Made by a program: the position numbers and the translations under genes
The notes under the pieces: model-generated
The model's database searches: none
Told to the model about the DNA's origin: nothing
What the model saw: the letters and a program-made list of their open reading frames with translations, nothing else
In this document: one piece after another, positions 3 through 42,783 of the stretch
How the letters are laid out: every line of letters starts with the position of its first letter
Numbering within the stretch: the stretch's first letter is position 1
Source of the DNA: Sulfodiicoccus acidiphilus
GTDB taxonomy: Archaea; Thermoproteota; Thermoprotei_A; Sulfolobales; Sulfolobaceae
Reading direction: 5' to 3'
Length of the DNA stretch: 64,000 nucleotides
Assembly: GCF_003967175.1 (NCBI RefSeq)
Contig: NZ_AP018553.1
Location: 1,537,982 to 1,601,981 of the forward strand

Positions 3-1367
3 AACGTTCCGCAGTTCGTCGTGCTTGAGTACGCCGTGTGGAAGCTGGGAGGGGTCCTAGTTCCTCTCAATCCAATGTACACTCCCAGGGAACTGGAGTA
101 TTACTTCAGGGATTCCGACGCGAAGGTAGTTGTGGCAACCTGTGAGTCCCTATCTAAAGCGAGGGAGGCCGCCAAGGGTAGGGTGGTAGTCCAGACCTCA
201 CCTGACACCTTCCACCCGCTCCCAGACCAGGTTAGGGAGAAGTGGAAGGTGGAGAGCTGCGAGGAGGGACTCTACCTCAAGGGCAGGAGCACCTTCCACG
301 TGGAGGTCCAGGACCCAGAGGACGTTGCCTTGTTGGTGTACACGTCGGGGACGACGGGGGACCCCAAGGGGGCGGTGATAAAGCACAAGAACCTCTACGC
401 AAGTTCCTGGATATATAGGGAGTGGTTCAAGTTCACTCCTCAGGACAAAGTCCTCGGTGCAGCTCCCCTCTTCCACGTTACTGGACTGGTGTTTCACGTA
501 GCTACGTCGGTACTCTCAGGTGCGTCGTTGAGGCTTTTCTACAGGTTCGATCCAGACTTGGCGCTCTCTACGGTTGAGGAGGAGAAGACGACGGCGACCA
601 TGGCGGCGGCTACGGCCTTCATAGCTATGGTCCCCAAGCTAAGGGGGAGGGATCTGAAGTCGATGAGGCTCTGGTCTTCCGGTGGAATGGCAGTACCTCT
701 CTCGCTAGAGAAGCAATGGAGAGAGGGGACTGGGAGCTGGATATACGTGGCCTGGGGACTCACCGAGACCACGTCTCCCGCGACTCTCTGGCCCTACCCC
801 TACGAGGGAGACGTTCCCCTCGACCCCAAGACTAACGTCGTGAGCTCCGGAATTCCCGTCTACTACACGTGGGTTAAGCTGGTAGATTCGGAGCTGGTGG
901 ACGGTGAGGAGGTAGGGGAGATAGCAGTGAAGGGTCCTCAGGTGGTTGACGGTTACTGGAACAAGCCTGAGGCCAACGCCAAGACCTTCAGGGACGGTTG
1001 GCTCCTCACGGGGGACGTGGCCAAGCTAATCAACGGCTGGGTCTACATAATAGACAGGAAGAAGGATCTCATAAACGCCTCTGGCTTCAAGGTGTACCCC
1101 AGGGAAGTGGAGGAGGTGATCTACCTTCATCCCGCTGTTGAGGAGGTTGCAGTGGTAGGGGTACCTGACCCTTACAGGGGGGAGACAGTCAAAGCGTTCG
1201 TGAAGTTGAAGGATGGATACTCAGGGAACGAGTCCCTCAAGAGGGAGCTCGAGTTGTTCTGCAGGGAGAGGTTGGCGGCTTACAAGGTGCCTCGAGAGGT
1301 GGAGTTCGTAGATGAGGTGCCTAAGACCGCAAGCGGTAAGATTCTAAGGAGGGCGTTCAGGGCTTGA
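3..1367 (+). CDS. Acyl-CoA synthetase (AMP-forming), 5' end cut by window
   Basis: Adenylate-forming enzyme that activates a carboxylic acid, probably a fatty acid, with ATP and CoA. The frame is open to the left edge and already reads like the family before the first possible start (GTG at 21), so the true N-terminus lies outside the window. Counting from 21, the AMP-binding P-loop YTSGTTGDPKG is at residues 107-117. A WGLTETTSP motif, the hinge region DRKKDLINASGFKVYPREVE and the C-terminal lysine motif KTASGKILRR follow. The stop overlaps the start of the thiolase-like gene by four bases, so the two are probably co-translated in an acyl-CoA pathway. The exact substrate is not readable. Confidence 0.93.
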   Translation, partial: NVPQFVVLEYAVWKLGGVLVPLNPMYTPRELEYYFRDSDAKVVVATCESLSKAREAAKGRVVVQTSPDTFHPLPDQVREKWKVESCEEGLYLKGRSTFHVEVQDPEDVALLVYTSGTTGDPKGAVIKHKNLYASSWIYREWFKFTPQDKVLGAAPLFHVTGLVFHVATSVLSGASLRLFYRFDPDLALSTVEEEKTTATMAAATAFIAMVPKLRGRDLKSMRLWSSGGMAVPLSLEKQWREGTGSWIYVAWGLTETTSPATLWPYPYEGDVPLDPKTNVVSSGIPVYYTWVKLVDSELVDGEEVGEIAVKGPQVVDGYWNKPEANAKTFRDGWLLTGDVAKLINGWVYIIDRKKDLINASGFKVYPREVEEVIYLHPAVEEVAVVGVPDPYRGETVKAFVKLKDGYSGNESLKRELELFCRERLAAYKVPREVEFVDEVPKTASGKILRRAFRA

Positions 1368-2515
1368 GTGTCGTCGGCTTCGCCGGGTCCGTACATAAGA
1401 AGTACGAGGGCTCGGCCTTCGATTTGGCCAACGAGGTCGTGGATAAAGCGTTGGACTCGGCAGGAATGGAGAGGAAGGACGTGGACGGGCTAGTGAGTAC
1501 ATTCCTTCCTGGGGTGTGGGACGGTGCAACCTACAGGCACTTCTTCACGAACCAACTTAGGCAGGCCCTCAACATCAAGGCCAAGTACGTAGACGTCCTA
1601 GACTTCGGAGGGGCCTCGGCCATGGCCTCTATCTACAGGGCCCACAAGGCGGTGAAGGGAGGAGAGGCCGACGTAGTCCTCTGTCTCGTAGGAGGTAAGG
1701 GATCCGAGGTGAGGAGCAGGGGGGTGACGGTGGATTCGATAGACAGGGTGGAGGGAGGAGTTGCCCTCACTCCCTTCGATTGGCTGCTCAGGACCAACGT
1801 CGACCTCAACCCAGTGACGGACTACGCTCTAGTGGCTGCTAGGCACTCGAAACTGTTCGGAACTACTGACCAACAGAGGGCCTTGATCGCGGTCTACCAG
1901 AGATTCAACGCCGGAGCTAACCCAACCGCGCTATACAGGGATCCCCTCACGGTGGAGGGAGTACTCAGCTCACCCACCGTCTCCTGGCCCCTGCACTTAC
2001 TGGAGGTGGTGTATCCTGTCGACGGGTTTCACGCCTTCCTAGTCTCCAGGAGGTCCTCCAAGATGAGGTCTGTGGAGATCAAGGGCTACGGCGAGGCTCA
2101 TTGGCACGAACTCCCTCCAGAAATGCCAGACATAGTCACCACTCCAGCCGCGGAGTCGTCGAGGCAGGTGAGGGAGTTCCTCCACAAGGTAGACGCCCTA
2201 GAACTCTACGACTCCTTCACGGTGACTGTGATGTTGCAATTGGAGGACATAGGTGTAGTGGAGAAGGGGAAGGTGGGGTCTTTCTTAGAGAGGACCGACC
2301 TAACCTACAAGGGGACCCTCCCAACCAACACGGGAGGGGGTAGCCTCAACGTGGGTCAGCCGGCCTACATGAGTGGCGGCGTGGTGTTGGAGGAGGCCCT
2401 CCTTCAGCTCAACGACATGGCTGGCCACAGGAACGTAGGGGCCAGGAACGTGCTCACCAACGGTATAGGGGGGTGGAGCAGGTCCCACTCTGTCACTTTA
2501 GTGTTGGGAACCTGA
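1364..2515 (+). CDS. Thiolase-like protein without catalytic cysteine
   Basis: Thiolase-superfamily protein of 383 residues, the usual size for archaeal SCP2-type thiolases. The TTG start overlaps the previous stop (TTGA). Where thiolases have the acylated Cys in a C-A-S motif this protein has G83-A84-S85 within LDFGGASAMAS, and the only cysteine is elsewhere (VVLCLVGG). Near residue 320 the sequence is NTGGGSLNVGQP, so the catalytic His of the usual G-H-P motif is Gln. Family knowledge: thiolase-fold proteins lacking Cys include Ltp2-type retro-aldolases, which work with a DUF35 partner; no DUF35 gene is visible here. It may be a C-C lyase rather than a thiolase. Family assignment is firm, reaction is not. 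Confidence 0.88.
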   Translation: MSVVGFAGSVHKKYEGSAFDLANEVVDKALDSAGMERKDVDGLVSTFLPGVWDGATYRHFFTNQLRQALNIKAKYVDVLDFGGASAMASIYRAHKAVKGGEADVVLCLVGGKGSEVRSRGVTVDSIDRVEGGVALTPFDWLLRTNVDLNPVTDYALVAARHSKLFGTTDQQRALIAVYQRFNAGANPTALYRDPLTVEGVLSSPTVSWPLHLLEVVYPVDGFHAFLVSRRSSKMRSVEIKGYGEAHWHELPPEMPDIVTTPAAESSRQVREFLHKVDALELYDSFTVTVMLQLEDIGVVEKGKVGSFLERTDLTYKGTLPTNTGGGSLNVGQPAYMSGGVVLEEALLQLNDMAGHRNVGARNVLTNGIGGWSRSHSVTLVLGT

Positions 2516-2608: not shown

Positions 2609-2636
2609 GGGTCAGAATAAAAACGGTGTAAGCTGC

Positions 2637-2649
2637 TAAATATAAATTT
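2637..2649 (+). promoter_or_regulatory. TATA box of the semialdehyde dehydrogenase gene
   Basis: The AT-rich TAAATATAAATTT is centred about 28 bases before the ATG at 2672, the spacing of an archaeal TATA box to a start codon at or next to the transcription start. The mRNA is therefore probably leaderless, consistent with the lack of a ribosome-binding site. Confidence 0.6.
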
Positions 2650-2671
2650 CAGTTTCTCCACATTCTTCACT

Positions 2672-4120
2672 ATGACTAAAACAGGCGTCTTCATTGGGAA
2701 GTACATCGTGCCGGAAGATAGGGAGTACTACCAAATCAGAAACCCCGCCGACACCTCTGAGTTGGTGGCGGAGTTCCCCTTGATGAAGAGGGAGGACGTT
2801 GGGGCGGCGGTAGAGGCGGCCAGGAAGGGATTCGAGACTTGGTCCAACATGCTCCCAGTGCAGAGGGCTAACGTCCTCTACAGGGCGGCCGAAATAGTGC
2901 AGTCGAGGTTCGACAAAATGGCAGAGCTCCTCACCAGGGAGGAGGGTAAGACAGTCCAAGACAGTGCCTTCGAGGTAACGAGGACGGTAAACCTCCTCAG
3001 GTTCTACGCCGGGCTCATCACCACTAAAGAGGGAAAGGTCATACCATCACAGGACCAGAGGACAACCATTCTGACGTATAGGGAACCCCTTGGGGTGATA
3101 GGGGTAATAACGCCCTGGAACTTCCCCCTCTCCTTACCTGCGTGGAAGATAGTTCCGGCTATCGCCACAGGAAACGCGGTGGTGTGGAAGCCCGCCTCCA
3201 TAACCCCCGTGGTTGCCACCGAGCTAGTGAGGGCTCTCTACGAGGCGGGACTCCCAGAGGGGGTCGTGAACACTGTCGTCGGTCCAGGGAGCACTGTGGG
3301 AGACGAGATGACTAGCCTCAATCAATTCGACGCCATCACCTTCACAGGCTCGCTTCAGGTCGGCAGGGAAGTGGCGAAGAAGGTGGGAGGCAGGTTCACT
3401 AGGCTACAGCTGGAACTGGGAGGCAAGAACGCCACCGTCCTATCCAAGAAGGGAAAACAGGACCTAGCCGTGGAACAGGTAGTAAGGGCGGCTTTCGGTC
3501 TCACTGGACAGGCCTGCACAGCTACGTCGAGGTTCTTAGTCCCGGAGGACCTACATGACTCCGTGCTCTCGAAGCTTGTTGAGAGGACGAGGAGGCTCGT
3601 TGTAGGGAACGGTCTGAAGAAGGGCGTAGACGTGGGGCCGTTGGCCAGCAGGGAACAGTACGAGAAGGTCCTCTCCTACATCGATGTAGGGAAGTCTGAG
3701 GGGGCTAAGTTAGTACTCGGAGGGGAGCCCTTAAAGGGAGCTGAACACGAGCGTGGGTACTTCGTCCAGCCCACAATATTTGACGGTGTAACAAGTGACA
3801 TGAGGATCGCTAGGGAGGAGATATTCGGACCCGTACTTTCCGTGATGAGTTACAGGAACATGGACGAAGCCTTAGACATAGTCAACGGGACCGAGTACGG
3901 GCTAGTCGCGGAGATCGTCACAGACGACCTATCCGAGGCAGCGGACTTCTCTCGGGCCGCCAAAGTTGGTGTAGTAAAGATCAACAAGCCCACCACGGGA
4001 CTGGAGCCGTGGGTACCTTACGGGGGAGTCAAGGGCTCCGGGAACGACGTTTACAAGGAGATGGGAGAGGAAGCCTTGGACTTCTTCACGAGGTACAAGG
4101 CGGTGTACTTGGGCTATTAA
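2672..4120 (+). CDS. Aldehyde dehydrogenase, probably 2,5-dioxopentanoate (alpha-ketoglutarate semialdehyde) dehydrogenase
   Basis: NAD(P)-dependent aldehyde dehydrogenase of 482 residues, a full-length family member. Visible active-site features are N150 in PWNF, K173 in WKPAS, E248 in LELGG and the nucleophile C282 in GQACTATSR. The next gene encodes 2-keto-3-deoxyarabinonate dehydratase, whose product is 2,5-dioxopentanoate; in Sulfolobus solfataricus the equivalent dehydrogenase and dehydratase are also neighbours. The inferred reaction is the last step of oxidative pentose breakdown, giving 2-oxoglutarate. The ATG is chosen because a TATA box lies 28 bases upstream. A T6 tract follows the stop. 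Substrate is inferred from context; the ALDH assignment is certain. Confidence 0.93.
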   Translation: MTKTGVFIGKYIVPEDREYYQIRNPADTSELVAEFPLMKREDVGAAVEAARKGFETWSNMLPVQRANVLYRAAEIVQSRFDKMAELLTREEGKTVQDSAFEVTRTVNLLRFYAGLITTKEGKVIPSQDQRTTILTYREPLGVIGVITPWNFPLSLPAWKIVPAIATGNAVVWKPASITPVVATELVRALYEAGLPEGVVNTVVGPGSTVGDEMTSLNQFDAITFTGSLQVGREVAKKVGGRFTRLQLELGGKNATVLSKKGKQDLAVEQVVRAAFGLTGQACTATSRFLVPEDLHDSVLSKLVERTRRLVVGNGLKKGVDVGPLASREQYEKVLSYIDVGKSEGAKLVLGGEPLKGAEHERGYFVQPTIFDGVTSDMRIAREEIFGPVLSVMSYRNMDEALDIVNGTEYGLVAEIVTDDLSEAADFSRAAKVGVVKINKPTTGLEPWVPYGGVKGSGNDVYKEMGEEALDFFTRYKAVYLGY

Positions 4121-4136
4121 CAGGTGAGGGCCCACC

Positions 4137-4142
4137 TTTTTT
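4137..4142 (+). promoter_or_regulatory. T6 tract: terminator of the dehydrogenase gene and/or TATA region of kdaD
   Basis: TTTTTT followed by AG lies 17 bases after the dehydrogenase stop and is centred 26 bases before the kdaD ATG at 4166. Oligo-T tracts terminate archaeal transcription, and the position also fits a TATA element, so it could serve both roles. No other promoter-like sequence is seen in this 45-base gap. Confidence 0.4.
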
Positions 4143-4165
4143 AGCTCCCTCTCCGCCCGTTATTC

Positions 4166-5016
4166 ATGAAGTTCTTCAGGGCAGTCAAGGGCGGAGAAGT
4201 TAGTACGTTTTTGCTGGACGGGACTCAAGTTTACTTCTTGAAAGGCGACGTAGTTCGAGCCCTCCTCGACGGTCCCTCCCGTGGGGAGGAAGCCGCGATC
4301 GACGTTAACTCCCTCCTCGCGAGAGGAGAATGGGGGGCTGGAAGATAACCAAGCCCCTAGATCCACCTGAGGTGTGGGGGGCTGGAATATCCTACGAGGC
4401 AGCTCGTGGGAGGTACACAGAGGACGTCAAGGACAAGGGGATGACAATATACGATATGGTATACAACGCTGAGAGGCCAGAAATATTCTTCAAGGCGACT
4501 GCGAACAGGTGCGTAGGGCACATGGAACCTATTAGGGTTAGGTCCGACTCCAGCTGGACCCTCCCGGAGCCGGAACTAGGCGTAGTGTTGTCGTCTTCGG
4601 GGAGGCCCTTGGCCTTCACCGTGGTTGACGACGTCTCTGCCAGGGACATAGAGTCAGAGAATCCACTTTACCTCCCACAGTCCAAGATATATGCAGGTAG
4701 TTGCGCGGTGGGGCCCTTCTTGGTGACGCCGGACGAGGTGGGAGATCCGTATTCACTGGAGGTGAATCTGAGGATCCTCAGGGGAGGAAAAGAGGTGTTC
4801 TCTGGGAGGACCAACACCTCCAGGATGAGGCGGAGGATAGACGAACAGGTGAAGTACCTAACTAGGGACAATCCTGTTCCAGACGGCACACTGCTCTCTA
4901 CCGGTACCGGTATAGTCCCAGGAAGGGACGTAGATCTCAGGGAAGGGGACGTAGTAGAGATCACGATAGATAAGTTGGGGACTCAGGTGACTCCGGTGGT
5001 GAAGGGAAAGGGCTAG
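4166..5016 (+). pseudogene. kdaD: 2-keto-3-deoxy-D-arabinonate dehydratase, one frameshift
   Basis: FAA-hydrolase-fold enzyme that dehydrates 2-keto-3-deoxyarabinonate to 2,5-dioxopentanoate in pentose oxidation. The reading frame is split: 4166-4348 encodes the small N-terminal domain (starting MKFFRAVKGG), and 4330-5016 the catalytic domain (WKITKPLDPPEVWGAGISY, then RPEIFFKAT, PEPEL and DDVSARD with likely metal ligands, and LPQSKIYAG). One more G in the G6 run at 4332-4337 joins them exactly as GEWGGWKITKP, giving 283 residues, close to the 298 or so known for the S. solfataricus enzyme. Alternatives are re-initiation at the in-run ATG (4330) or -1 slippage on the run. The catalytic domain alone lacks the conserved N-terminal domain. 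Confidence 0.9.
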
Positions 5017-5083
5017 ATTTACTTTTCACGACGTTAAGTAAAAAACAAGATATTAAATTGGCTCTCCCTACAAAGTGTGGATA

Positions 5084-5095
5084 ATATTTAAATAC
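5084..5095 (+). promoter_or_regulatory. TATA box of the glcS-like gene
   Basis: ATATTTAAATAC lies about 40 bases before the GTG at 5129, leaving a leader of roughly 10-15 bases that contains a weak GTGAG ribosome-binding candidate. Confidence 0.5.
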
Positions 5096-5128
5096 TGGTT
5101 TCAGGAGCTCACTTAATTTAGTGAGAAT

Positions 5129-6721
5129 GTGGCTAAAAGAAAGGCTTTATCGAGGACCGCCACGTGGGCCATAGTGGCGGTGATAGTGATAGTGGTGATA
5201 GTGGGGGGTGTGTTCGGCTACCTTGCCACGAGGCCCCACGTCACCACTCCCACGACCACTCCCACAACTCCTCCACCAACACCGACCAACACCTCTTCTC
5301 AAGTGGTGTTCTACACCTGGTGGGCCACCACTGGAAAAGTCGCACTTGAGCACCTGATACCAGCCTTCGAGAGCGTCTATCCCAACTACAAGGTCGTTCC
5401 GAGCCTAGTGCCTGGAGCGGGGGGAACTAACGCCAAGTTCGCTATCCTCGCACTGATCGAGGCCGGGAAGCCACCGGCGACCTTCCAGACCCACATGGGT
5501 CCGGAGATGATATCCTACGTGGAGGCCGCCCCACAGGGGATTAAGGACTTCGTCAACATAACTCCAATAGCTGAACAAATGGGCCTGATACAGCACGCCG
5601 TCCCAGCGGTCCTAGAGGCTGGCTCCTTCAACGGCACCCTACTCTCCATGCCAGTTAACGTGCACAGGGGCTCCCTCCTCTACGTCAACTGGCCACTCCT
5701 CAAGAAGTACGGCCTCCCCTTCCCCTACAACTTCTCCACCCTGGTCTACGACACGGAACAGCTCCAGGCCCACGGCGTCAGCGCCTGGGAGATACCTGGG
5801 GCCGACGGAGGGTGGGACCAGCTCAACGTCTGGGAGGACATATTCCTCTCCCTGGCTGGCCCTAGGCTCTACAACGAGATAACCTACGGCGTCCTTCCCA
5901 TGAATTCCACGGTGATGCACATCATAAACGAGACCGACCAGTACTTCCTCATGTTCGCCAACACCGACTACCCAGGCTGGCAGTCCATAACCTGGACCCA
6001 GGGACTCACCAACCTGGCCCAGGGGAAGGTGGCCTTCCAGGCCAACGGGAACTGGCTCACCAACTACGCCTACGACTTCCTCAACGTCACGGTGGTTCCG
6101 GCAACACCGCAGTACCTCAGCATGCCTAACACCACCATAGTGGAGACTCCCTTCCCCGGGACGCAGAACTATTACGCCATAGTTATAGACTCCGTTGGAA
6201 TACCCGTAGGTCCTTCGGAGCAGGCCGGAATAGCGCTAGCCAAGTACTGGGCCTCTTGGCAGGGACAGCAGATATGGACCAAGTGGAAGGCTGTCACCTT
6301 CTACGACAACGTCACCACGGACTACTTCAACACCCCAGCACAATGGTACGACTACCAGGCCCTCCTCCACACCCCCGCCCAGGACTTCGTCTATCAGCTC
6401 TCGGACGGAGGTACCTTCGACGACGTCTTCGGCCAACTGACGTCGGGCATGTTGACCTACCAGGAGGTTGGAGCTGTGGGAACTTCCGCCTGGCTCAGCA
6501 CCTTGAACTCCTCCATCCACGAGGAGTACCAGGAGTGGCAAGCGGCGGCCAAGCTGGGCCTAGGGTTCCTGGGGTTCCCAGGGCACCCCTTCGCTGACTA
6601 CTACCCGCCCTGGGTAAACGCAAGCGACTCCAGCAGCTCCAGCACCACGTGGGGAGGAGGTTACCTGATCCTAGCTGCCGGAAGCCTAGTGCTTGGGGCG
6701 GTTGAAGTACTTAGAAAGTGA
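5129..6721 (+). CDS. glcS: GlcS-type glucose/sugar-binding protein of an ABC transporter
   Basis: Extracellular solute-binding protein of 530 residues resembling S. solfataricus GlcS (binds glucose, galactose and mannose). The N-terminus has a charged KRKA stretch before a hydrophobic helix, the layout of a class III signal processed by PibD, then a Thr/Pro-rich linker at about residues 36-55. The binding domain starts at VVFYTWWATTGKVALEHL and includes PGAGGTNAKFAILALIEAGKPP cut into GlcS-like blocks, GNWLTNYAYDF and GFPGHPFADYYPPW. A Ser-rich linker and C-terminal hydrophobic anchor end it. Start GTG at 5129 gives the signal; ATG at 5127 is out of frame. No GlcT, GlcU or GlcV partner is visible in the window, so it is an orphan here. 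Its position in the pentose cluster suggests it may bind a pentose or a mix of sugars. Confidence 0.92.
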   Translation: MAKRKALSRTATWAIVAVIVIVVIVGGVFGYLATRPHVTTPTTTPTTPPPTPTNTSSQVVFYTWWATTGKVALEHLIPAFESVYPNYKVVPSLVPGAGGTNAKFAILALIEAGKPPATFQTHMGPEMISYVEAAPQGIKDFVNITPIAEQMGLIQHAVPAVLEAGSFNGTLLSMPVNVHRGSLLYVNWPLLKKYGLPFPYNFSTLVYDTEQLQAHGVSAWEIPGADGGWDQLNVWEDIFLSLAGPRLYNEITYGVLPMNSTVMHIINETDQYFLMFANTDYPGWQSITWTQGLTNLAQGKVAFQANGNWLTNYAYDFLNVTVVPATPQYLSMPNTTIVETPFPGTQNYYAIVIDSVGIPVGPSEQAGIALAKYWASWQGQQIWTKWKAVTFYDNVTTDYFNTPAQWYDYQALLHTPAQDFVYQLSDGGTFDDVFGQLTSGMLTYQEVGAVGTSAWLSTLNSSIHEEYQEWQAAAKLGLGFLGFPGHPFADYYPPWVNASDSSSSSTTWGGGYLILAAGSLVLGAVEVLRK

Positions 6722-6753
6722 GAGCGATAAATCTCTGGAGTTAAGGGAAAGCG

Positions 6754-6759
6754 TTTTTT
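6754..6759 (+). terminator. Oligo-T terminator after glcS
   Basis: A TTTTTT tract 33 bases after the binding-protein stop, before the ATG of the SDR gene, fits an archaeal intrinsic terminator. Confidence 0.45.
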
Positions 6760-6781
6760 CCTGGACTTCATCCATCATCCC

Positions 6782-7678
6782 ATGTTAAGAAAAGGGAAAG
6801 TATGTGTCGTCACAGGTGGAGCGGCAGGAATAGGAGCGGCGATCTCCTACAGGCTTGGTCAAGAGGGATGCCACATAGTCTTAGTCGACGTCAACCAGGA
6901 ATGGGGGAAGTGGAGGGAGATGTGGTTGAAAGAGAGGGGTGTGGACTGTTCGTTCGTCCAGGCCGACGTCTCCTCCGAGGAGCAGGTGAGGAGGGCCGTG
7001 TCAGAGGTGGAGGGAACTAAAGGAAGGATAGACGTCCTAGTTAACAACGCAGGGGTGGGTACACACGGGAAGTCCATAGAGGAGCAGACACTTCAGGACT
7101 GGAGGAGGGTGATCGATACCAACTTGACAGGTACGTGGCTAATGACTAAGTACTCCATCCCCCTCCTGAAGGGAGGCGTCATCGTTAACGTGGCCTCCAC
7201 TAGGGCGTTTCAATCGGAGCCAGACACGGAACCCTACTCGGCCTCCAAGGGAGGGATAGTTGCACTAACCCACTCCCTAGCAGTAAGCCTCTCTAGGTAC
7301 GGTATAAGAGTTGTCTCCGTGTCCCCAGGGTGGATAGACACGTCCAGCTGGAGGGTCCCTCCAGTGGAGTCTCTACTCACCTCTCTAGATCACGGTCAGC
7401 ACCTGACCGGGAGGGTGGGGAGGCCGGAGGACGTGGCGGCGCTAGTTTCCTTCCTCACCTCAGAAGACGCCTCATGGATCTCCGGGGTCAACTTCACGAT
7501 CGACGGTGGAATGACCGTCAAGATGATCTACCTCGACGAGGGCACGATAGGGTCGGCCACCGCTAAACTCACCAACGACCCAGAGCTCGGAAGTACTTTG
7601 GCCTCCGTTCTCTCTAGGGCTGCCAAGGATCAAGGGGTGAGGGAAAAGTTGCTGAATCTCCTCAGGCAGTTCACGTGA
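6782..7678 (+). CDS. SDR-family NAD(P)-dependent dehydrogenase
   Basis: Classical short-chain dehydrogenase of 298 residues. The nucleotide-binding TGGAAGIG is at 11-18, NNAG at 88-91, and the catalytic S139, Y152 and K156 (YSASK) are intact. A C-terminal extension of about 45 residues beyond the usual end (after TIDGGMTVK) is unusual. The gene sits between glcS and a sugar-acid dehydratase, in a module that also holds KdaD and the dioxopentanoate dehydrogenase, so oxidation of a sugar or polyol (for example an aldose 1-dehydrogenase step) is a reasonable inference. It ends four bases from the convergent dehydratase gene. The family is certain, the substrate is not. Confidence 0.9.
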   Translation: MLRKGKVCVVTGGAAGIGAAISYRLGQEGCHIVLVDVNQEWGKWREMWLKERGVDCSFVQADVSSEEQVRRAVSEVEGTKGRIDVLVNNAGVGTHGKSIEEQTLQDWRRVIDTNLTGTWLMTKYSIPLLKGGVIVNVASTRAFQSEPDTEPYSASKGGIVALTHSLAVSLSRYGIRVVSVSPGWIDTSSWRVPPVESLLTSLDHGQHLTGRVGRPEDVAALVSFLTSEDASWISGVNFTIDGGMTVKMIYLDEGTIGSATAKLTNDPELGSTLASVLSRAAKDQGVREKLLNLLRQFT

Positions 7679-7682
7679 GGGT

Positions 7683-8942
7683 TCACAGCTCCCAGTCAGG
7701 CCAGTACTTCCTCATAGTCTGCTCGTCCAAGTCCACCCCGAGTCCAGGCTCGTCGTATAACTTCAGGTATCCGTCTTGGAACCAACTTCTCTTAGGTTTA
7801 ACGATCTCTCCCCAGAACGGGACGTCGTGTCCGTGGAACTCTATGAAGCCCAACGTGTTGGAAACTGACGCGGTGTGGGCGTGGGCCATAGTGGCTATGG
7901 GAGAGGCGATGTTGTGTGGGGAGTACTCCACGTCGTACATGGCAGCCAACTCAGCTATCCTCCTCCCTTCACTTATCCCCCCTGCCTTAGCTATGTCAGG
8001 TGCCCACACCCTCACTCCGGTGTTCAAGAGGTCCTTGAACTGGTACACTGTGTAGAGGTTCTCTCCGGTCTCTATCGGCGTAGAGCATAGGGATGTAAGG
8101 ATCCTCAACTCCTCTAAGTTACTTACCGACATCACCGCCGGAGTCGGGTCCTCTATCCACCTGAGCCTGTAGGGTTCTAGGGCCCTGCAAACCCTGGCTG
8201 CCGAGTTCAGGTTGTACCTCCAGTGCAGGTCCACCATGATCTCCACTTCGTCTCCCACCGCGTCTCTAACTGCCCTCACTATGGAGCCCATGTAATCTAC
8301 GTCCTTTAGGGAGAGGTCTCCCGACCTTATTTTCCTAGGGTCGGTGTGAGGCGTGGGGACGTCCAAGTCGAACTTCATGGCCCTGAAGCCCTCGTTCTTC
8401 ATCCTCCTGGCCCTCTCGGCGTAAGACTCTGGGGAGTAATCCTGGTTCCAGGACTCCACTGACATCCGGCCGTGTATGGGGTTGGTTCGTGACGCGAGTC
8501 TCTCCCTCTCCACCTCAGCTTCCTTCACCCACGGGAGATCCACCGGGAGCTGAACGGCGTTCATCGCCTCCAATCCCTTCCCCCCGTGGGCATCGACGTA
8601 GAAGGGAATCTCCTCCCTGTCCCCGCCCAGGAGCCTGTACACAGGGACGTTGAGGAACTTCCCCACCAGGTCGTGCAATGCGATGTCTACGCCGGAGACG
8701 GCGTGATAGAAGGTGGTGCCCGAATAAAGGCCTGCGTAACGGAGCTTCTGACCTATCCTGTTGAACTTGAGGGCGTCCTCTCCAATTAAAAGGGGTCTTA
8801 GTTCCCGCACTATCTCTGCAACTCCCGGCGCCGGTCCTGCCTCGCCAGTGCCGTAGAGCTCTCCAGCGTATACCCTGACGAAGGTCCACTGGAAGTTAGC
8901 TTGGGTGGTGTAGGCCTTGACGTCCGTTATCTTCAATTCCAT
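7683..8942 (-). CDS. Enolase-superfamily sugar-acid dehydratase (arabinonate/xylonate/mannonate type)
   Basis: Mandelate racemase/enolase-superfamily protein of 419 residues. Features include KFD, the metal ligands D in MVDLHWRYN, E in RWIEDPTP and E in PIETGENLY, and the catalytic His in EYSPHNIASP. Such enzymes remove water from aldonates to give 2-keto-3-deoxy acids. Because KdaD and the dioxopentanoate dehydrogenase lie a few kilobases away, an aldopentonate (arabinonate or xylonate) is the best guess, which would complete a Weimberg-like route to 2-oxoglutarate. Gluconate or mannonate remain possible. It does not read like the S. solfataricus gluconate dehydratase GnaD as I recall it. 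The gene is convergent with the SDR gene. Confidence 0.9.
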   Translation of the reverse strand: MELKITDVKAYTTQANFQWTFVRVYAGELYGTGEAGPAPGVAEIVRELRPLLIGEDALKFNRIGQKLRYAGLYSGTTFYHAVSGVDIALHDLVGKFLNVPVYRLLGGDREEIPFYVDAHGGKGLEAMNAVQLPVDLPWVKEAEVERERLASRTNPIHGRMSVESWNQDYSPESYAERARRMKNEGFRAMKFDLDVPTPHTDPRKIRSGDLSLKDVDYMGSIVRAVRDAVGDEVEIMVDLHWRYNLNSAARVCRALEPYRLRWIEDPTPAVMSVSNLEELRILTSLCSTPIETGENLYTVYQFKDLLNTGVRVWAPDIAKAGGISEGRRIAELAAMYDVEYSPHNIASPIATMAHAHTASVSNTLGFIEFHGHDVPFWGEIVKPKRSWFQDGYLKLYDEPGLGVDLDEQTMRKYWPDWEL

Positions 8943-9233: not shown

Positions 9234-9354
9234 TATATACATGTAAGTTCACTTTACAGAGAGCAGGTAGAAGCCGACAACTTTTGTTCGATCCAGTACG
9301 GTAAAATAGTTGCAATCGAATTGTATCTAAACTTAATGAAAGTACATGTATATA
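9234..9354. repeat. Inverted repeat TATATACATGTA / TACATGTATATA in the divergent promoter region
   Basis: TATATACATGTA at 9234-9245 is the exact reverse complement of TACATGTATATA at 9343-9354, 97 bases apart. The right arm lies about 50 bases before the proposed glycosidase start. It could be a pair of binding sites for one regulator or TATA-like sequence on both strands. Confidence 0.45.
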
Positions 9355-9375
9355 CCGCGGTTAACCACATTGTCT

Positions 9376-9384
9376 GTTTATATG
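9376..9384 (+). promoter_or_regulatory. TATA box that fixes the glycosidase start
   Basis: GTTTATATG is centred 26 bases before an in-frame GTG at 9406, implying leaderless translation from there and excluding the upstream in-frame ATGs at 9346 and 9382, which precede or overlap the TATA box. Confidence 0.5.
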
Positions 9385-9405
9385 TTGGAAGTCCCCACAC
9401 TTCTC

Positions 9406-11199
9406 GTGGACTACATCTGGAGGAAGTTCCTCGTGGGGGTGAACTATTGGCCCTCTCAGGGGAACGTCAAAGCGTGGAGAGATTTCAAGATAGACGTCGT
9501 CAGGAAGGACTTCGACGCCGCTAAGAAGCTGGGGATAGACGCTGCCAGGGTATTCGTAATGGCACAGGACTGTTCGACGCCCGAGGGATCCCTTTTGGAG
9601 GAGTGTGGCTCAGGGCTTAAAGAAATGGCGTCGGAAGCACATACAAGGGGGATCTTGCTCTTCCCCACCTTGCTTGTGGGCCACATGAGCGGGAAGAACT
9701 GGCCCATTCCTTGGGAAGGGGAAGGTCTGTACTCACCGGAGGGAGTCGAGTCCGGGAGGAGGTTCGTTGCCCAATTGGTCCTGACACTCAGGGACTCTCC
9801 GGCTGTCGCGGGGTGGGTATTGACCAACGAGGTCACACTCTACAGAAGGCCCTCCTCCGTGGGGCAGTTCAGGGTCTGGCTCCTCTCCTTGGCGTCGACA
9901 GTCAGGTCTCTGGATCCGCACCGTCCAGTGTCTGTTGGAGATTCCATCTCACTGTTCAGTCCACCTTACCTCAGGCCAGAGAACGTGAGAGACCTGGTGG
10001 ACTACGCCTCTCCCCATCTATACATGTACGATCACGACGAGTCTAGGCATACCATGTATTACTTCTCGGCGCTGGAGTACGACAGGGCAACCGCTGGCAA
10101 GGTCCTCCTAGAGGAGTTCGGCCTTCCCACCTCCACCTACGGAGAGGAGTCTCACGCTGGTTTCGTGGAGGTGGTCTTGCATGGTGCACTGCTTTACGGG
10201 GCAGAGGGTGCCCTCTACTGGTGCCTGTCCGACTTCGACGCCCCGGGAGACGAGCCCTACCTCTGGGAGCCCCACGAACTCAAGTTCGGTCTATTGAGGG
10301 CCGACCTCTCATCGAAGAAAGCCGCCGAGGTGGTGAGGAAGTTCTCTGAAAAGTTGAAGGAAGTGGACCTCTCCGGTTTCACCTTTCCTAGGAAGGACTC
10401 AGCTATCCTAGTTCCAAATTGGGCATGGAGGGACTACCAGTTCCTCCCTGAGACGGGGTGGAGGGACGAGCTCTCCAGAGTCTTGGCTCAGTCCTTCTCT
10501 TTAGCTAGGGCGGCGTCATTGCAAGTGACTTTCGCCGCAGAGGAGGGAGACTGGCCTTTCAAGTTACTTCTCGTCCCCTCGACACCGAGGCTCCTCTCCA
10601 CGACCTGGAGGAAGCTTCTAGGGTTCGTGGAGCAGGGAGGAACGCTCTACTACTCCACCGTGAGACTCACGAGCCACTCCTCAGCCTCCGACTTCTGGGA
10701 GGAACTATTCGGCGTGAGGCCTTCCCTGGTGGCGGGTTCCCCTGGAGTGAGGCTGCAGGACCCCGTCCTCAGGATGAGTGAGGAGTTCGCGTTCACTGGT
10801 ACAGCCCTGACTTACTCCTTCACGCCAGTAGATGCGGAGGTGTTGAGTGTGGATGGATCTGGGAGACCCGTTCTCTTCTCGGCTACGAGAGGTAAGGGAA
10901 GGGCGATCCTCCTCACAATCCCGGCAGAGCTCTTACTATCGAGGTCCCAGGGCTGGGAATTCAGTTCCTTCTACTCCTGGCTGGGGGATCTGTCCCAGGC
11001 ATCTAGGACCCCGTCCTCGGGTGACCCACGAATCGAGGTTCAATACCTGCAGGGTAGGAACGAGCTACTGCTTGGCGTCATAAACCACTCCTCCGAGGAG
11101 AAGGAGGTCAAACTCAACGTTGGTAGGAGGATGGCGCTCGATCAAGTCCCTGGAAAGCTGAAAGGTAAATCCGCCACCCTCACGTTGCTCTCCACGTGA
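9406..11199 (+). CDS. Clan GH-A glycoside hydrolase (GH5/mannanase- or GH42-like)
   Basis: TIM-barrel glycosidase of 597 residues from the GTG at 9406, whose product starts VDYIWRKFLVGVNYWP; the frame could open at 9346. The N-terminal barrel carries the likely acid/base Glu in TNEVTLYRR and the likely nucleophile Glu in LLEEFGLPT, the order and spacing of clan GH-A. WVLTNE and LYWCLSDFD also fit. The C-terminal half (from about KDSAILVPNW) resembles the Rossmann-like trimerisation domain of GH42-type enzymes, followed by a small beta domain. No signal peptide is seen, so it should be intracellular and act on imported oligosaccharides, perhaps beta-mannosides or beta-galactosides. Family class is likely; specificity is open. 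Confidence 0.82.
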   Translation: MDYIWRKFLVGVNYWPSQGNVKAWRDFKIDVVRKDFDAAKKLGIDAARVFVMAQDCSTPEGSLLEECGSGLKEMASEAHTRGILLFPTLLVGHMSGKNWPIPWEGEGLYSPEGVESGRRFVAQLVLTLRDSPAVAGWVLTNEVTLYRRPSSVGQFRVWLLSLASTVRSLDPHRPVSVGDSISLFSPPYLRPENVRDLVDYASPHLYMYDHDESRHTMYYFSALEYDRATAGKVLLEEFGLPTSTYGEESHAGFVEVVLHGALLYGAEGALYWCLSDFDAPGDEPYLWEPHELKFGLLRADLSSKKAAEVVRKFSEKLKEVDLSGFTFPRKDSAILVPNWAWRDYQFLPETGWRDELSRVLAQSFSLARAASLQVTFAAEEGDWPFKLLLVPSTPRLLSTTWRKLLGFVEQGGTLYYSTVRLTSHSSASDFWEELFGVRPSLVAGSPGVRLQDPVLRMSEEFAFTGTALTYSFTPVDAEVLSVDGSGRPVLFSATRGKGRAILLTIPAELLLSRSQGWEFSSFYSWLGDLSQASRTPSSGDPRIEVQYLQGRNELLLGVINHSSEEKEVKLNVGRRMALDQVPGKLKGKSATLTLLST

Positions 11200-11245: not shown

Positions 11246-12211
11246 GTGAAAGTACTAGTTTTAGGTTGTAGAGGGTGGGGAGAGGTCCACCTCAGGGCCC
11301 TGAGCAAATTGGGAGTGGAGCTCTCAGTATACGCTAGAACTAGCGAGGCGGTAGAGGAGTGCGCGTCCAAGTTCGAGGTGTCGTCGACGTTCACCGACAT
11401 CAACCAAGCCCTTCATTCCGACGCCGACGTGGTAGACGTGGTACTTCCCCACGACCTCCACGCTCCAGTGAGCGTGAAAGCGATGAAATTGGGAAAGGAC
11501 GTCACAGTGGAGAAACCGATCGCCGCCTCCCTACGCGAGGCCCAAGAGATGACGTCCACCTCGAGGAGTTCTGGCAGGAAACTCATGGTCACTGAACAGT
11601 TCCACTTCGATCCATCAGTGAAAAGGACCAAAGAGATCGTGGAATCGGGCAAGATAGGGAAGGTGCACACCGTGATCGTAAGGTCGCAGCTCCGGTGGTC
11701 TGGCTCGGGGTGGAGGAGGGAGGCCTCCCACATGGGTGGGGGAGCCCTAATAGACGGGGGAGTGCACTTCGCTGACACCCTCCTCCAATTGGGAGGAGAG
11801 TATGAGGACGTCGCAGGCTACACGTACAAGGGAGCTGGGTTGATTGAGGGGGAAGACACGGGAATGGCCGTCTTCAAGTTCAAGGGCGGAGCCCACGGTT
11901 TCTTCTTCTACACCTGGGCCTACCCAAACCCACCTCCCGTCCCTAGGTTCGAAGTAGTGGGGAGCGACGGGAGCGTGGTGGACGACGTGTGGAACAGACC
12001 GAAGGGCAGGATGGCACCTTACGGTCCCCTACTCGTAAATGGAGTTAGGGAAGACGTAGAGGACCAAGACTTATACACGTCCATGTTCAGTCAATTCTTC
12101 AAGGCTGTTGAAGAAGGGACTGACGTTCCCTTCCCTCCCGAACTAGCAGTAGCCGACCTGAAGGCGATCTTGGATGTGTACGACGCTAGCGAAAAGAGGA
12201 GACGTGTTTGA
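11246..12211 (+). CDS. Gfo/Idh/MocA-family oxidoreductase
   Basis: NAD(P)-dependent sugar oxidoreductase of 321 residues. It has an N-terminal Rossmann start (VLVLGCRGWGEVHL), the family's EKP motif in DVTVEKPIAAS, and GGGALIDGGVHFAD, where the C-terminal-domain catalytic His is expected. The GTG start follows the glycosidase by 46 bases, and the gene may be read with it. The last 26 bases overlap the convergent vapC. Members of this family oxidise or reduce sugars, inositols and 3-keto-glycosides; the substrate cannot be read. It is one of five in the window. Confidence 0.9.
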   Translation: MKVLVLGCRGWGEVHLRALSKLGVELSVYARTSEAVEECASKFEVSSTFTDINQALHSDADVVDVVLPHDLHAPVSVKAMKLGKDVTVEKPIAASLREAQEMTSTSRSSGRKLMVTEQFHFDPSVKRTKEIVESGKIGKVHTVIVRSQLRWSGSGWRREASHMGGGALIDGGVHFADTLLQLGGEYEDVAGYTYKGAGLIEGEDTGMAVFKFKGGAHGFFFYTWAYPNPPPVPRFEVVGSDGSVVDDVWNRPKGRMAPYGPLLVNGVREDVEDQDLYTSMFSQFFKAVEEGTDVPFPPELAVADLKAILDVYDASEKRRRV

Positions 12212-16048: not shown

Positions 16049-16179
16049 CTGTTAGACTCTAAAAGTTAGGAATTTTTTATATTCTTATAATTTCAATTTG
16101 TTGAGTGTAACCACTTCCGAGTTTCGAAACGATAATGAAAATGCTTAAATCGTACCTCGCCTACCTTCACGTGAGTCCG

Positions 16180-38801: not shown

Positions 38802-39875
38802 ATGGACAAACTCAGAGTCGGCGTGATAGGCGTAGGAGGACATGGCAGGAATAGACATCTCGTCCCTTACAGGAGACTCGAAGATGTAGAGTTAGTTGCG
38901 GTGGCCGACGTGAACCAAGACACCGCCAGGAAAGTGGGGGAGGAGTTCGGTGTGGCCCACTACGTGGACTACAAGGAGATGTTGGACAAGGAGAAGCCCG
39001 ACTTAGTGAGCGTTGTAACACCGACCGGACTGCACGCTAGAATAGCGTCAGACGCACTTAAGGCGGGGGCCGACGTGTTAGTTGACAAGCCCGCAGGGGC
39101 GAACCTAAGGGAGGTCATGGAACTTTTCAACCTCTCGAGGGAGGTCAGGAAGAGAGTCATGGTGGGCTACTGGTCTAGGTTCTCTCCGGCCCTCTCTTAC
39201 GTTCTCAGCCTCGCCAGGGACGGGGCGCTTGGCCAGGTGTATCACGTCTCGGCCTCCATAGTTAGAAGGCGGGGAATTCCGGGGTTACCAACCTTCATAG
39301 ACAAGTCGCTCAACGGTGGAAGAGGTGCCCTCCTGGACATAGGGTGCTACGTCATAGACAACGCCTTGGCACCGCTGGGCTTCCCACCTCCCAGGAGCGT
39401 TTCTGGAGCAATTTACTCTAAGATAGGAGTGAGGAGGGAGGAAGTCCCCTTGAACTGGGGTTCCTGGGATCCGTCAAAGTTCGACCTAGAGGACTACGCA
39501 GTTGCTTTGGTCAAGTTCGATCGCTTCACCATGTCCCTGGAAGTCGGGTGGGCCGCCAACGTCTCCCATCAGGGTGAGGTCACCTTGGTGAGGATTCTAG
39601 GAGACGAAGGCGGGGTGGAGATGAGGGGGACAGAGGCCATCACTGACGTCACCTTCCACGGAGTTCAGGCCGGCCACGTCGTTGACGTGAAGCCCCACCT
39701 GAAGAAGGCGGACCTGCCCTTCGAAATGGTGAGGGAGTTCGTGAGCTCGGTGAGGGAAGGAAGAGACCCCTCTCCCAACCTCAGGGAGAGCTTGATACTC
39801 CACGCCGTTATAGATGGTATCTACAACTCCGCGGAGGAGGGGAAGGAAGTCACCCTAACCTCACTTTCAGGGTGA
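38802..39875 (+). CDS. Gfo/Idh/MocA-family oxidoreductase
   Basis: Oxidoreductase of 357 residues. It has VGVIGVGGHGRNRHL at the N-terminus, DKP in place of the usual EKP (DVLVDKPAGAN), and GGRGALLDIGCYVIDN, where the usual catalytic His is replaced by Tyr. CCTTTATTGA at 38771-38780 is a TATA candidate 26 bases before the ATG. It follows the kinase gene and overlaps the convergent GH38 gene by 26 bases. In an isomerase-type uronate route it could reduce a ketouronate, but this is a guess. Confidence 0.9.
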   Translation: MDKLRVGVIGVGGHGRNRHLVPYRRLEDVELVAVADVNQDTARKVGEEFGVAHYVDYKEMLDKEKPDLVSVVTPTGLHARIASDALKAGADVLVDKPAGANLREVMELFNLSREVRKRVMVGYWSRFSPALSYVLSLARDGALGQVYHVSASIVRRRGIPGLPTFIDKSLNGGRGALLDIGCYVIDNALAPLGFPPPRSVSGAIYSKIGVRREEVPLNWGSWDPSKFDLEDYAVALVKFDRFTMSLEVGWAANVSHQGEVTLVRILGDEGGVEMRGTEAITDVTFHGVQAGHVVDVKPHLKKADLPFEMVREFVSSVREGRDPSPNLRESLILHAVIDGIYNSAEEGKEVTLTSLSG

Positions 39876-42783
39876 CGATCTCCCTGTTTCCGTAGTCCAA
39901 GGAGACCGAGTTCCCTTCCACCCTGAGTTTCTTCTGAACACCGTTAAGTTCTAACAAGTCCGTGGCCTCTGCGGCACTCACTGGCCTGTTGAACCTTAGG
40001 ACGCAGTTTCCCCTCCTGTTCTGGAACTCGAAGAGTCTGAGCACCACGGAGTCGTCGTCCTCCCCGATCTTCACGGCCTCCAGCACTAGGTCTCCCTCAA
40101 CCGACAGCTGAGAAGGAAGGTCGGAGGAGGCCCTGACTACCCTGAGTGGCACGTTTAGCTCCCATGCCCTCCTAACTGGAAGTCCGTCCCTCCAGGTTCC
40201 CCGGTGTGGGAGGAGAGAGTAGGTGAACTTCGTCTCTTCTAGGTCGGTAGCTGGGTCTGGGAATATGGGTGTCCTAGTCAGGGTGATCCCGACCGAACTT
40301 CCCTTAACGGCCACGCCGTATTTTCCGTCGTTCAGGAGAGAAACACCGTAGTCTCCCTCAGAGAGATCTACGAACTTCTGCATTGGGGCCTCGAACCTCG
40401 CAGCCTCCCAGCTGGTGTTCCTGTGGGTTGGTCTCTCCGTCACCCCGAAGGGCGCGTCCACCACGTAATTCTCGGCGTTGACATCGAAGTCGAACCACGC
40501 CTTAACCATCAATTCCCTGTCCCTCATCCTCACAACCGTGAAGAAGTCGAGTCTGTCGGAGTCCGCCAGTAACCTCACCTTTTGCTCTATTTCGTTCCTT
40601 CCGAACTTCCTTATAGTGGTCACTTCTCCCATGAGAGGTCCGCGCGCCGTCACTTCGACGTGAGACGCCTTAATGTGGGTCGAGGCTAGTTCGTAGCTCG
40701 CCTCGACGTCCCACGCATCGTTAGGACCTGGAACGTTCTCGTACACCACAATTCTGTTGCCGCCTCCCTTGATGACCTGTCTTCCCTCCCTAAGGTCGAC
40801 CACCGACTCCACTTCCCCGCTCTGATTCAACGTCACCCTCAGCAGGCCGTTATCGAGGACTATCCAGTCGTCTCCCTCCTCCACCCTCACCGGTGTGGTG
40901 GGTTGAGAGGGCGAGAGCTTAGAGCAACCCATTGGGGGGACCGTCGTCCTGACCAACGTTCCACCTTCAACCTCCTGACCCCCTTCTAACTCAGCGTTCA
41001 CCTTAACGTAGTCGGTCCTGCTCCACTGGAGCGAGTTGCAGGCAACCAACTGGTCTCCCGAACCAAGGAGCTTGGAGAGGGCCTCCCCAGTCAGGGACTC
41101 TGCCTCATTGATCACTTCCTCCAGTTCCCTGTAGGCGACTTTGTAGACGTCCCTTATGGCGGAGCCTGGGAGTACGTCGTGGAACTGGTCCTTCAGTACG
41201 ACCTTCCATAGGCGCTGGAACCTCTCTCTAGCGTAAGTTCCTGCAATCGAGGACCAGATCTCGGCCTCCCTTAGGGCGAGTTCTGCCCTCCTGTTGAGAT
41301 ACTTCATTGCGGAGTGCGAAGTGAACACCCCCCTGTGCGTCTCGACGTAAAGCTCACCTCTCCACTGGTCGACAGGGGATATCTTGGAGAGCTCCGTGCT
41401 CACTCCTCCCAGGGACACCTTGGGTAGTACTGGCAGTTCTTCTATCGCCTCCGCCCTTAGTAACATCTCCTCGGTGGGGCCACCCCCTCCGTCGCCGTAG
41501 CCGTAAGCGTAGAGCATGGGCTGGTCCTTCTCCTTCCACCCTCTCCACTGTTCTACCACGCTTGAGGCACTGAAGTCCGAGTTGTAACCTCCCTTCCCGT
41601 GTCCGAAGGCCACGGCCGGGATCTTGGAACCGTCGGGGGCAACCCAGTGGAACACGTTGTAGGGGAAAGTGTTGGTGTCGTTCCAGAACACCTTGTGTGT
41701 CGCGAAGGCCTTTGCCCCTCCTAGTCTGGCTACCTCGGGGACGGTAGATGCGAAGCCGAACGTGTCTGGGAGCCAGAGGACTTCTGCCAGTCTTCCGAAC
41801 TCCCTCAGGAAGAACCTCTGGGAATACAACAACTGCCTAGCCAGAGACTCTCCTGTGACCATGTTGGTGTCAGTTTCCACGTAAGAGGCGGCTAGTTCCC
41901 ACTTCCCCTCCTTCACCTTTTCCTTAATCCGCTGGAAGAGCTCTGGGTGGTCCTCCTTCAGCCACTCGTAGTATATCGATGCGCTCTGGACGTGGTGGAA
42001 GTCGTACCTGTCCATCAGAGTGAGGACTGTGGAGAAGGTCCTGTGCACTTTCCTCCTAGTCTCGTCGAAGTTCCAGAGCCATGCCGTGTCTATGTGGGCG
42101 TGTCCCACCGCTATCAATAGGCCGCGTTTTCCGTACTTCCTCCTCAGTTCCCCCAATCCCTCCTTCAGGTACAACAGGGCCTTCTCGAACCTAGAGCCGT
42201 CTTCCTCCTCAGCGTATATGGGCTCTAGGTCCTTCTCGATGGACGCAGGAAACCTTTCCACCCACCTAGGGAGGCCTGCTGCCTTAACGGCGAGGATGAG
42301 CTGATCCCTAGACACAGTCCTGAATGGTGCCTTGGCTAAGGCCTTGGAGAGCAAGGAGAGCATGTCCTCTTCCAACTCTGGATCCTTGAGCGACCTGACT
42401 GCGTCTAGGATAGAACTTCCGTAAGCCCAAAGTCTGAGGGCACTGAAGTCCCTCTCCACCGCAACAGGCGTTCCTAAGTTAACTTCCACCTTCTCCCCGA
42501 AGTCCATGAGGTTAGAGAATTCGACGCTCACCTCGTGCCTGCCCACCGGAACAGGCACAGATATGTGATATCTGTCTATCTCGAAGTGAGGTCTCCCGTC
42601 GAGCTTGACCAGTGCACTGCCCGCACTGTCCACCACCATCAGCCTGAAGTTTCCACCTGTCGAGTCCACGTTCACTTTCCCCACGTTCCCTTTGGCCTCT
42701 TCCCACTTGAGGAAGGTGGGTCTCTTGAACGAGCTCGCGAGGACGTAGTTAAGCCGTGATTCGAGTTCTTGATGAGTTCTCAT
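39850..42783 (-). CDS. GH38 alpha-mannosidase
   Basis: Large intracellular alpha-mannosidase of 977 residues, matching the S. solfataricus GH38 enzyme in size and layout. HAHIDTAWLW gives zinc ligands, and WLPDTFGF contains the nucleophile Asp. HHVQSASIYYEW and the C-terminal all-beta region (from about residue 580) are as expected. No signal peptide. It would trim mannose from oligosaccharides or from N-glycans. A TATA-like AAAAATAAAAAT (42801-42815) sits 25 bases before the ATG, suggesting a leaderless transcript. Confidence 0.95.
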   Translation of the reverse strand: MRTHQELESRLNYVLASSFKRPTFLKWEEAKGNVGKVNVDSTGGNFRLMVVDSAGSALVKLDGRPHFEIDRYHISVPVPVGRHEVSVEFSNLMDFGEKVEVNLGTPVAVERDFSALRLWAYGSSILDAVRSLKDPELEEDMLSLLSKALAKAPFRTVSRDQLILAVKAAGLPRWVERFPASIEKDLEPIYAEEEDGSRFEKALLYLKEGLGELRRKYGKRGLLIAVGHAHIDTAWLWNFDETRRKVHRTFSTVLTLMDRYDFHHVQSASIYYEWLKEDHPELFQRIKEKVKEGKWELAASYVETDTNMVTGESLARQLLYSQRFFLREFGRLAEVLWLPDTFGFASTVPEVARLGGAKAFATHKVFWNDTNTFPYNVFHWVAPDGSKIPAVAFGHGKGGYNSDFSASSVVEQWRGWKEKDQPMLYAYGYGDGGGGPTEEMLLRAEAIEELPVLPKVSLGGVSTELSKISPVDQWRGELYVETHRGVFTSHSAMKYLNRRAELALREAEIWSSIAGTYARERFQRLWKVVLKDQFHDVLPGSAIRDVYKVAYRELEEVINEAESLTGEALSKLLGSGDQLVACNSLQWSRTDYVKVNAELEGGQEVEGGTLVRTTVPPMGCSKLSPSQPTTPVRVEEGDDWIVLDNGLLRVTLNQSGEVESVVDLREGRQVIKGGGNRIVVYENVPGPNDAWDVEASYELASTHIKASHVEVTARGPLMGEVTTIRKFGRNEIEQKVRLLADSDRLDFFTVVRMRDRELMVKAWFDFDVNAENYVVDAPFGVTERPTHRNTSWEAARFEAPMQKFVDLSEGDYGVSLLNDGKYGVAVKGSSVGITLTRTPIFPDPATDLEETKFTYSLLPHRGTWRDGLPVRRAWELNVPLRVVRASSDLPSQLSVEGDLVLEAVKIGEDDDSVVLRLFEFQNRRGNCVLRFNRPVSAAEATDLLELNGVQKKLRVEGNSVSLDYGNREIVTLKVRLG

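Follow-up and report, generated by a model that had tools for sequence, protein, structure and literature searches.

Do genes that lie within 6.3 kb of one another, and that recall successive steps of the oxidative pentose pathway, serve a single pathway? The question is raised by positions 2672-8942 of a stretch of the single 2,353,189-bp chromosome of Sulfodiicoccus acidiphilus (1,537,982-1,601,981, or 1.538-1.602 Mb; these 64,000 nucleotides are referred to below as the window), where genes for a 2,5-dioxopentanoate dehydrogenase (DOPDH), the 2-keto-3-deoxy-D-pentonate dehydratase KdaD (FAH superfamily), a GlcS-type sugar-binding protein, a short-chain dehydrogenase/reductase (SDR) and a dehydratase follow one another. 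An earlier note on this DNA had taken them for a near-complete pentose module that may mark a pentose regulon, and the reading frames that it named are all present (Table 1). With a probability of about 0.6, we regard the segment as a seam where a pentose tail meets a glycan-type gene set, with a displaced glcS between the two, and not as one pentose operon. Family counts given below refer to a comparison sample of 147 genomes of the same order.

The DOPDH-KdaD pair and the pentose front end

On the left of the seam, DOPDH and KdaD would catalyze the last two steps of pentose oxidation, from 2-keto-3-deoxy-pentonate through 2,5-dioxopentanoate to alpha-ketoglutarate, and would be fed by an AraDH dehydrogenase and an AraD dehydratase encoded 0.4 Mb away. 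Both assignments hold: the best NCBIfam model for DOPDH is NF052305 (2,5-dioxovalerate dehydrogenase type; 533 bits, below the cut-off of 750), and residues 5-225 of the longer KdaD frame match residues 66-288 of an S. solfataricus structure (PDB 2q18; 336 bits, E 8e-100), the next PDB match reaching only 60 bits. KdaD matches of more than 290 bits are found in nine of the 147 genomes, the next best score being 67, and KdaD and DOPDH are neighbors at all ten loci compared, namely eight that were fetched, the window itself and a contig designated L009 (one gene intervenes in genome G026). AraD lies within ∼6 kb of the pair at four of seven Sulfolobaceae loci, a tighter grouping in relatives than had been supposed. 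The L009 contig (JAFMDM010000006.1) is titled Euryarchaeota, yet it is syntenic with the Sulfolobales window, with 66-74% DNA identity over five long segments, and is possibly mis-binned or mis-named.

The Ara-box of the XylR pentose regulon, given as AACATGTT in an excerpt of PMC7264815, can be detected between the start regions of KdaD and DOPDH in all seven Sulfolobaceae relatives, a count that allows for over-long start calls at L075, L077, and L079. Upstream of DOPDH, KdaD, GlcS, SDR, and the dehydratase in the window, no Ara-box was found even with one mismatch permitted, which argues against a cluster that marks a pentose regulon, and the motif was likewise not found in L009 or in the more distant G026. 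A search for common promoter 8-mers replacing it, run with no control, returned just three short words common to three promoters.

Candidates for the earlier steps are encoded at 1.94 Mb (locus L016, 1,936,000-1,948,000), where a GlcS gene is divergent from GlcT and GlcU, followed by an AraDH match and then an AraD homolog. The former matches D-arabinose 1-dehydrogenase 2h6e over its full length (443 bits); the latter is ∼65% identical to the AraD found near KdaD in relatives and scores 597 bits on NF040866, below the cut-off of 650. Because these two genes lie at 1.94 Mb, the putative pentose front end is encoded outside the window, ∼0.4 Mb away. GlcV was not found within this 12-kb locus; a TrmB-type regulator is also encoded near its transporter and pathway genes. 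The arrangement resembles the oxidative D-arabinose/pentose pathway of Saccharolobus solfataricus (AraDH, AraD, KdaD, and DOPDH) and the Weimberg route of Sulfolobus acidocaldarius in the adjacency of KdaD and DOPDH and in the presence of AraDH and AraD counterparts in the genome, but differs in that front end and tail occupy two loci 0.4 Mb apart, that DOPDH-KdaD has no upstream Ara-box and that the KdaD frame is split.

GlcS and its probable detached transporter

The GlcS-type protein of the window reaches 756 bits on equivalog model NF040930 (cut-off 500) and has no GlcT, GlcU, or GlcV neighbor within the window, as the earlier note had observed. A search of the genome located GlcT matches over the cut-off only at 1.94 and 2.04 Mb, the second belonging to a complete glcTUV set without a binding protein at 2.042-2.045 Mb, ∼0.5 Mb away (GlcT 431, GlcU 413, and GlcV 529 bits, all over their cut-offs). 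The suggestion of a shared ATPase encoded elsewhere is thus upheld, but falls short in that the permeases are also missing here; the window GlcS must use transport parts encoded elsewhere. The glcTUV set at 2.04 Mb is its likely partner: GlcS would capture sugar outside the membrane and hand it to the distant GlcT/GlcU/GlcV complex for ATP-driven import. All four components over their cut-offs are shared with the GlcSTUV glucose ABC transporter of the Sulfolobales (CUT1), from which S. acidiphilus differs in that this glcS is detached from glcTUV.

Matches over the cut-off occur in ten genomes, comprising 23 GlcS and 15 GlcT. GlcS lies within ∼2 kb of GlcT in 14 of the 15 cases, the sole exception being the S. 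acidiphilus glcTUV set at 2.04 Mb, and nine of the 23 GlcS genes, in five genomes, have no adjoining GlcT. S. acidiphilus itself encodes GlcS three times and GlcTU twice, and in the stretches read only one of the two GlcTU sets has a GlcV beside it. A tree containing 22 of 24 GlcS proteins (the 23 over the cut-off plus that of L009) and two outgroup rows places the window GlcS beside that of L009 (100/99) and implies that the orphan state changed six times; well-supported branches demand at least three of these changes. In a small GlcT-GlcU tree both S. acidiphilus sets fall with the glucose-type and not the arabinose-type transporters, these labels having been assigned by neighborhood. The TATA-like element preceding GlcS is conserved in L009 and suggests a promoter of its own, so that GlcS need not be co-transcribed with KdaD. 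A second orphan GlcS lies at positions 4541-6106 of locus L015 (genome 1,516,541-1,518,106) and shares 82% identity with one in G084 that is also orphan.

The SDR, the dehydratase and the glycan island

To the right of glcS, the SDR, the dehydratase, a GH5-like glycosidase and a Gfo/Idh gene would be counterparts of a Saccharolobus glycan-degradation island arranged around an alpha-mannosidase. Among the Saccharolobus-like genomes the SDR relative (60-63% identical) adjoins a GH38 alpha-mannosidase in four of four, with the dehydratase relative (73-74%) ∼5 kb off, and KdaD is 129-143 kb from this island. A GDH-1-like gene, confirmed as a member of the GDH family, and a thermosome-like gene, both named from their sequences, stand between SDR and dehydratase. 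In both Saccharolobus-like flanks that were read, the alpha-mannosidase is followed by a relative of the GH5-like gene (45%) and, further on, by one of the Gfo gene (43-44%). Excerpts of PMC10302679 and PMC6105217 describe SSO3006 as an alpha-mannosidase and SSO3004 as a 33-kDa reductase, a pair that fits the SDR-mannosidase pair, the SSO numbers being inferred from gene order and these papers; many of the genes SSO3004-3050 encode carbohydrate-active enzymes according to a portion of PMC8037382. The S. acidiphilus locus shares the SDR, dehydratase, GH38, GH5-like, and Gfo counterparts with this island (GDH-1, SSO3004-type SDR, and SSO3006-type alpha-mannosidase) but differs in its layout: SDR and dehydratase adjoin each other directly, beside glcS and the pentose tail, with the mannosidase 31 kb further on.

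That the SDR could supply the sugar dehydrogenase step was also proposed in the earlier note. The gene is indeed an SDR, but nothing was found that marks it as a sugar dehydrogenase: it scores over no cut-off among the best 25 of 228 families listed, and neither a curated model score nor the pathway context in relatives points to that activity. Close relatives (E <1e-96) occur in 22 of the 147 genomes, of which 14 lack KdaD, and the neighborhoods of all 17 further SDR loci contain no KdaD, DOPDH, GlcS, or dehydratase gene.

The dehydratase carries MR_MLE domains PF13378 and PF02746 and has the features of an enolase-superfamily acid-sugar dehydratase, but it is not the arabinonate dehydratase, the AraD homolog of this genome being encoded at 1.94 Mb. 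Its assignment to AraD (NF040866; 116 bits, cut-off 650), to gluconate/galactonate dehydratase GnaD (NF040790; 156 bits, cut-off 750) or to D-mannonate dehydratase ManD (NF043051; 163 bits, cut-off 550) was considered and rejected, no curated family cut-off being reached, and the protein is 24-26% identical to the AraD and GnaD-type enzymes of its own genome. Residues D238, H240, E264, E294, D316, and H343 are invariant across 11 members of its family, and we take these to be metal-site and acid/base candidates. A lid region (residues 118-172) comprises ∼50 residues in these 11 members and ∼10 in AraD- and GnaD-type proteins. The family is present in ten of the 147 genomes, the other nine proteins being 62-74% identical to that of the window, and G050 carries a further copy (59%); eight of the ten also have GlcS over the cut-off, against 0.7 expected (not corrected for phylogeny), and five lack KdaD. 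Dehydration of D-xylonate and L-arabinonate has been assigned to Sso2665 in an excerpt of PMC9795676; a G131 gene at 2.49 Mb, taken as Sso2665 from its position, is GnaD-like, with 60% identity to S. acidiphilus GnaD and 27% to the window dehydratase. The substrate of the window dehydratase would be an aldonic acid liberated from glycans or from exopolysaccharide. Tentatively, the enzyme may represent an uncharacterized enolase-superfamily class, marked by the conserved lid region and by a catalytic motif set of its own, that uses the aldonic acid derived from a sugar brought in through GlcS; several GlcS proteins of differing specificity, encoded at scattered loci and mutually exchangeable, would then share a single GlcTUV core.

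Several observations weigh against a seam with a glycan-type set on its right. The SDR is present in eight of the nine KdaD genomes, and at 16 of 17 non-Saccharolobus SDR loci no neighbor matches any window gene, so a glycan role of the SDR is weak too; at the G053 locus the SDR is next to relatives of two other window genes. Co-occurrence of SDR and GH38 is weak (12 of 22, expected 8.4, P 0.07, not corrected for phylogeny). A related dehydratase (59%), GlcS, SDR (37%), and GlcV lie together in G050, as might be expected of a single functional unit to which the binding protein belongs. The L009 locus has no dehydratase, its genome yielding only weak matches of 33-34% identity, and the carbon-source list in an excerpt of PMC6647314 includes no mannose and no arabinose. 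In L009, GlcS-SDR and KdaD-DOPDH are also neighbors; because their order and orientation differ there, and the dehydratase is missing, the layout of the locus is fluid.

Part of this evidence would favor a module dedicated to pentose oxidation. There the SDR would oxidize xylose or arabinose, the dehydratase would take the pentonate, KdaD and DOPDH would lead to alpha-ketoglutarate, and GlcS would bind the pentose. All of the genes lie inside 6.3 kb, the association of SDR with KdaD genomes and the two neighboring pairs of L009 are as expected of such a module, S. acidiphilus is described as growing on xylose in the same excerpt of PMC6647314, and the dehydratase has a KxD motif, a His two residues past the first metal-site position and a D/H pair, all also found in GnaD-type proteins. 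Against this stand the AraDH match and AraD homolog encoded elsewhere, the low identity of the dehydratase to AraD and GnaD and its occurrence without KdaD in half of its genomes, the 14 of 22 SDR genomes that also lack KdaD, the missing Ara-box, the position of GlcS and of the genome's GlcT/U away from the arabinose-type clade, and the split KdaD frame. We consider a dedicated module unlikely, and the description of the cluster as a near-complete pentose module is borne out only by half.

Similarly improbable is a mannose or mannoside pathway in the right-hand genes, by which the GH5-like enzyme and GH38 would free mannose, GlcS import it, the SDR form mannonate and the dehydratase convert this to 2-keto-3-deoxygluconate. 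The best PDB matches of the GH5-like neighbor are beta-mannanases/mannosidases, the SDR lies beside the alpha-mannosidase in the Saccharolobus-like genomes, and the long lid loop of the dehydratase, in which Arg159 and Tyr169 are invariant, may resemble that of ManD. The ManD score given above is nevertheless far below its cut-off, as no family model is over its own, ten of the 22 SDR genomes have no GH38, and mannose is missing from the growth list in the excerpt of PMC6647314.

The KdaD frame break and the surrounding genes

The KdaD homolog named in the earlier note is genuine, but its listed frame lacks the first ∼60 residues, which are encoded in another frame, the switch coinciding with six consecutive G (4332-4337). 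One continuous reading frame is therefore not present in S. acidiphilus, whereas KdaD is open end to end in all eight other full-length matches among the 147 genomes and in L009. Comparison with L009, confined to the C-terminal part, gives 79% amino-acid identity (dN 0.15, dS 2.1), against 83% for the neighboring DOPDH, and because this part is so well conserved a long decay of KdaD is unlikely. The genome is a PacBio-only assembly with 244 pseudogenes according to a part of PMC6647314, and an ABC ATPase of the window (25037-26880) is likewise divided between two frames, the break falling at five consecutive G within its LSGG signature motif, with an intact paralog at 16135-18012. An assembly error is plausible for KdaD because of the C-terminal conservation, the PacBio-only assembly and this second gene split at a G run. 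That the pair is instead a neutral juxtaposition with a dead KdaD, a real mutation having left the pentose tail decaying and no functional unit, is very unlikely: the split at a G run, the intact homologs and the reported pseudogenes that would fit it are set against conservation near that of DOPDH outside the break, the signs of assembly error and a C-terminal frame with its own ATG.

A homopolymer census showed runs of seven or more G/C to be scarce in most other sampled genomes too, and does not bear on the KdaD split. Two more window genes, GH3-like and GH31-like by eye, seem to be split into overlapping frames (20174-22400 and 55480-57350), consistent with the number of pseudogenes reported for this PacBio-only genome. 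In locus L012 of Thermogymnomonas acidicola, 21 kb contain 73 G/C runs that are exactly seven long, ∼3 being expected; together with broken frames, this resembles a sequencing artefact.

Table 1. Features of the window discussed in the text (positions are those of the window)
Feature	Position	Strand	Remark
Acyl-CoA ligase-like and thiolase-like genes	21..2515	+	relatives near KdaD or AraS-type loci in some Saccharolobus-like genomes
TATA-like promoter element of the DOPDH-KdaD unit	2636..2650	+	read by eye; no Ara-box
2,5-dioxopentanoate (alpha-ketoglutarate semialdehyde) dehydrogenase, DOPDH	2672..4120	+	NF052305; adjoins KdaD in relatives
KdaD N-terminal part, own frame (60 aa, then stop)	4166..4348	+	
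KdaD C-terminal part, FAH domain, 228 aa, second frame	4330..5016	+	
TATA-like element of GlcS	5084..5094	+	read by eye; conserved in L009
GlcS-type sugar-binding protein, no permease/ATPase adjoining	5129..6721	+	NF040930
SDR	6782..7678	+	relative adjoins alpha-mannosidase in Saccharolobus-like genomes
Enolase-superfamily sugar-acid dehydratase, distinct family	7683..8942	-	
GH5-like beta-mannanase/mannosidase homolog	9346..11199	+	PDB 7bob, E 6e-17
Gfo/Idh/MocA oxidoreductase, after GH5-like gene	11246..12211	+	
GH38 alpha-mannosidase	39850..42783	-	relative adjoins SDR in Saccharolobus-like genomes

Upstream of DOPDH, the thiolase-like gene has a relative (∼60% identical) within ∼5 kb of KdaD/DOPDH at three of the seven Sulfolobaceae loci, and the ligase-like gene has one (58%) beside the second GlcS-type operon of L090, at one of the two such loci fetched. 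Searches of a limited literature collection for orphan binding proteins in archaeal sugar transport and for pentose use by Sulfodiicoccus brought no paper on this locus to notice.

Both gene sets belong to known kinds, which the locus leaves unchanged; what is corrected is the pathway call, as gene proximity alone suggested a pentose operon, whereas synteny, the regulatory motif and the genome's AraDH/AraD locus favor two distinct systems. The locus is also a clear case on which to test archaeal sugar importers whose binding protein is detached.

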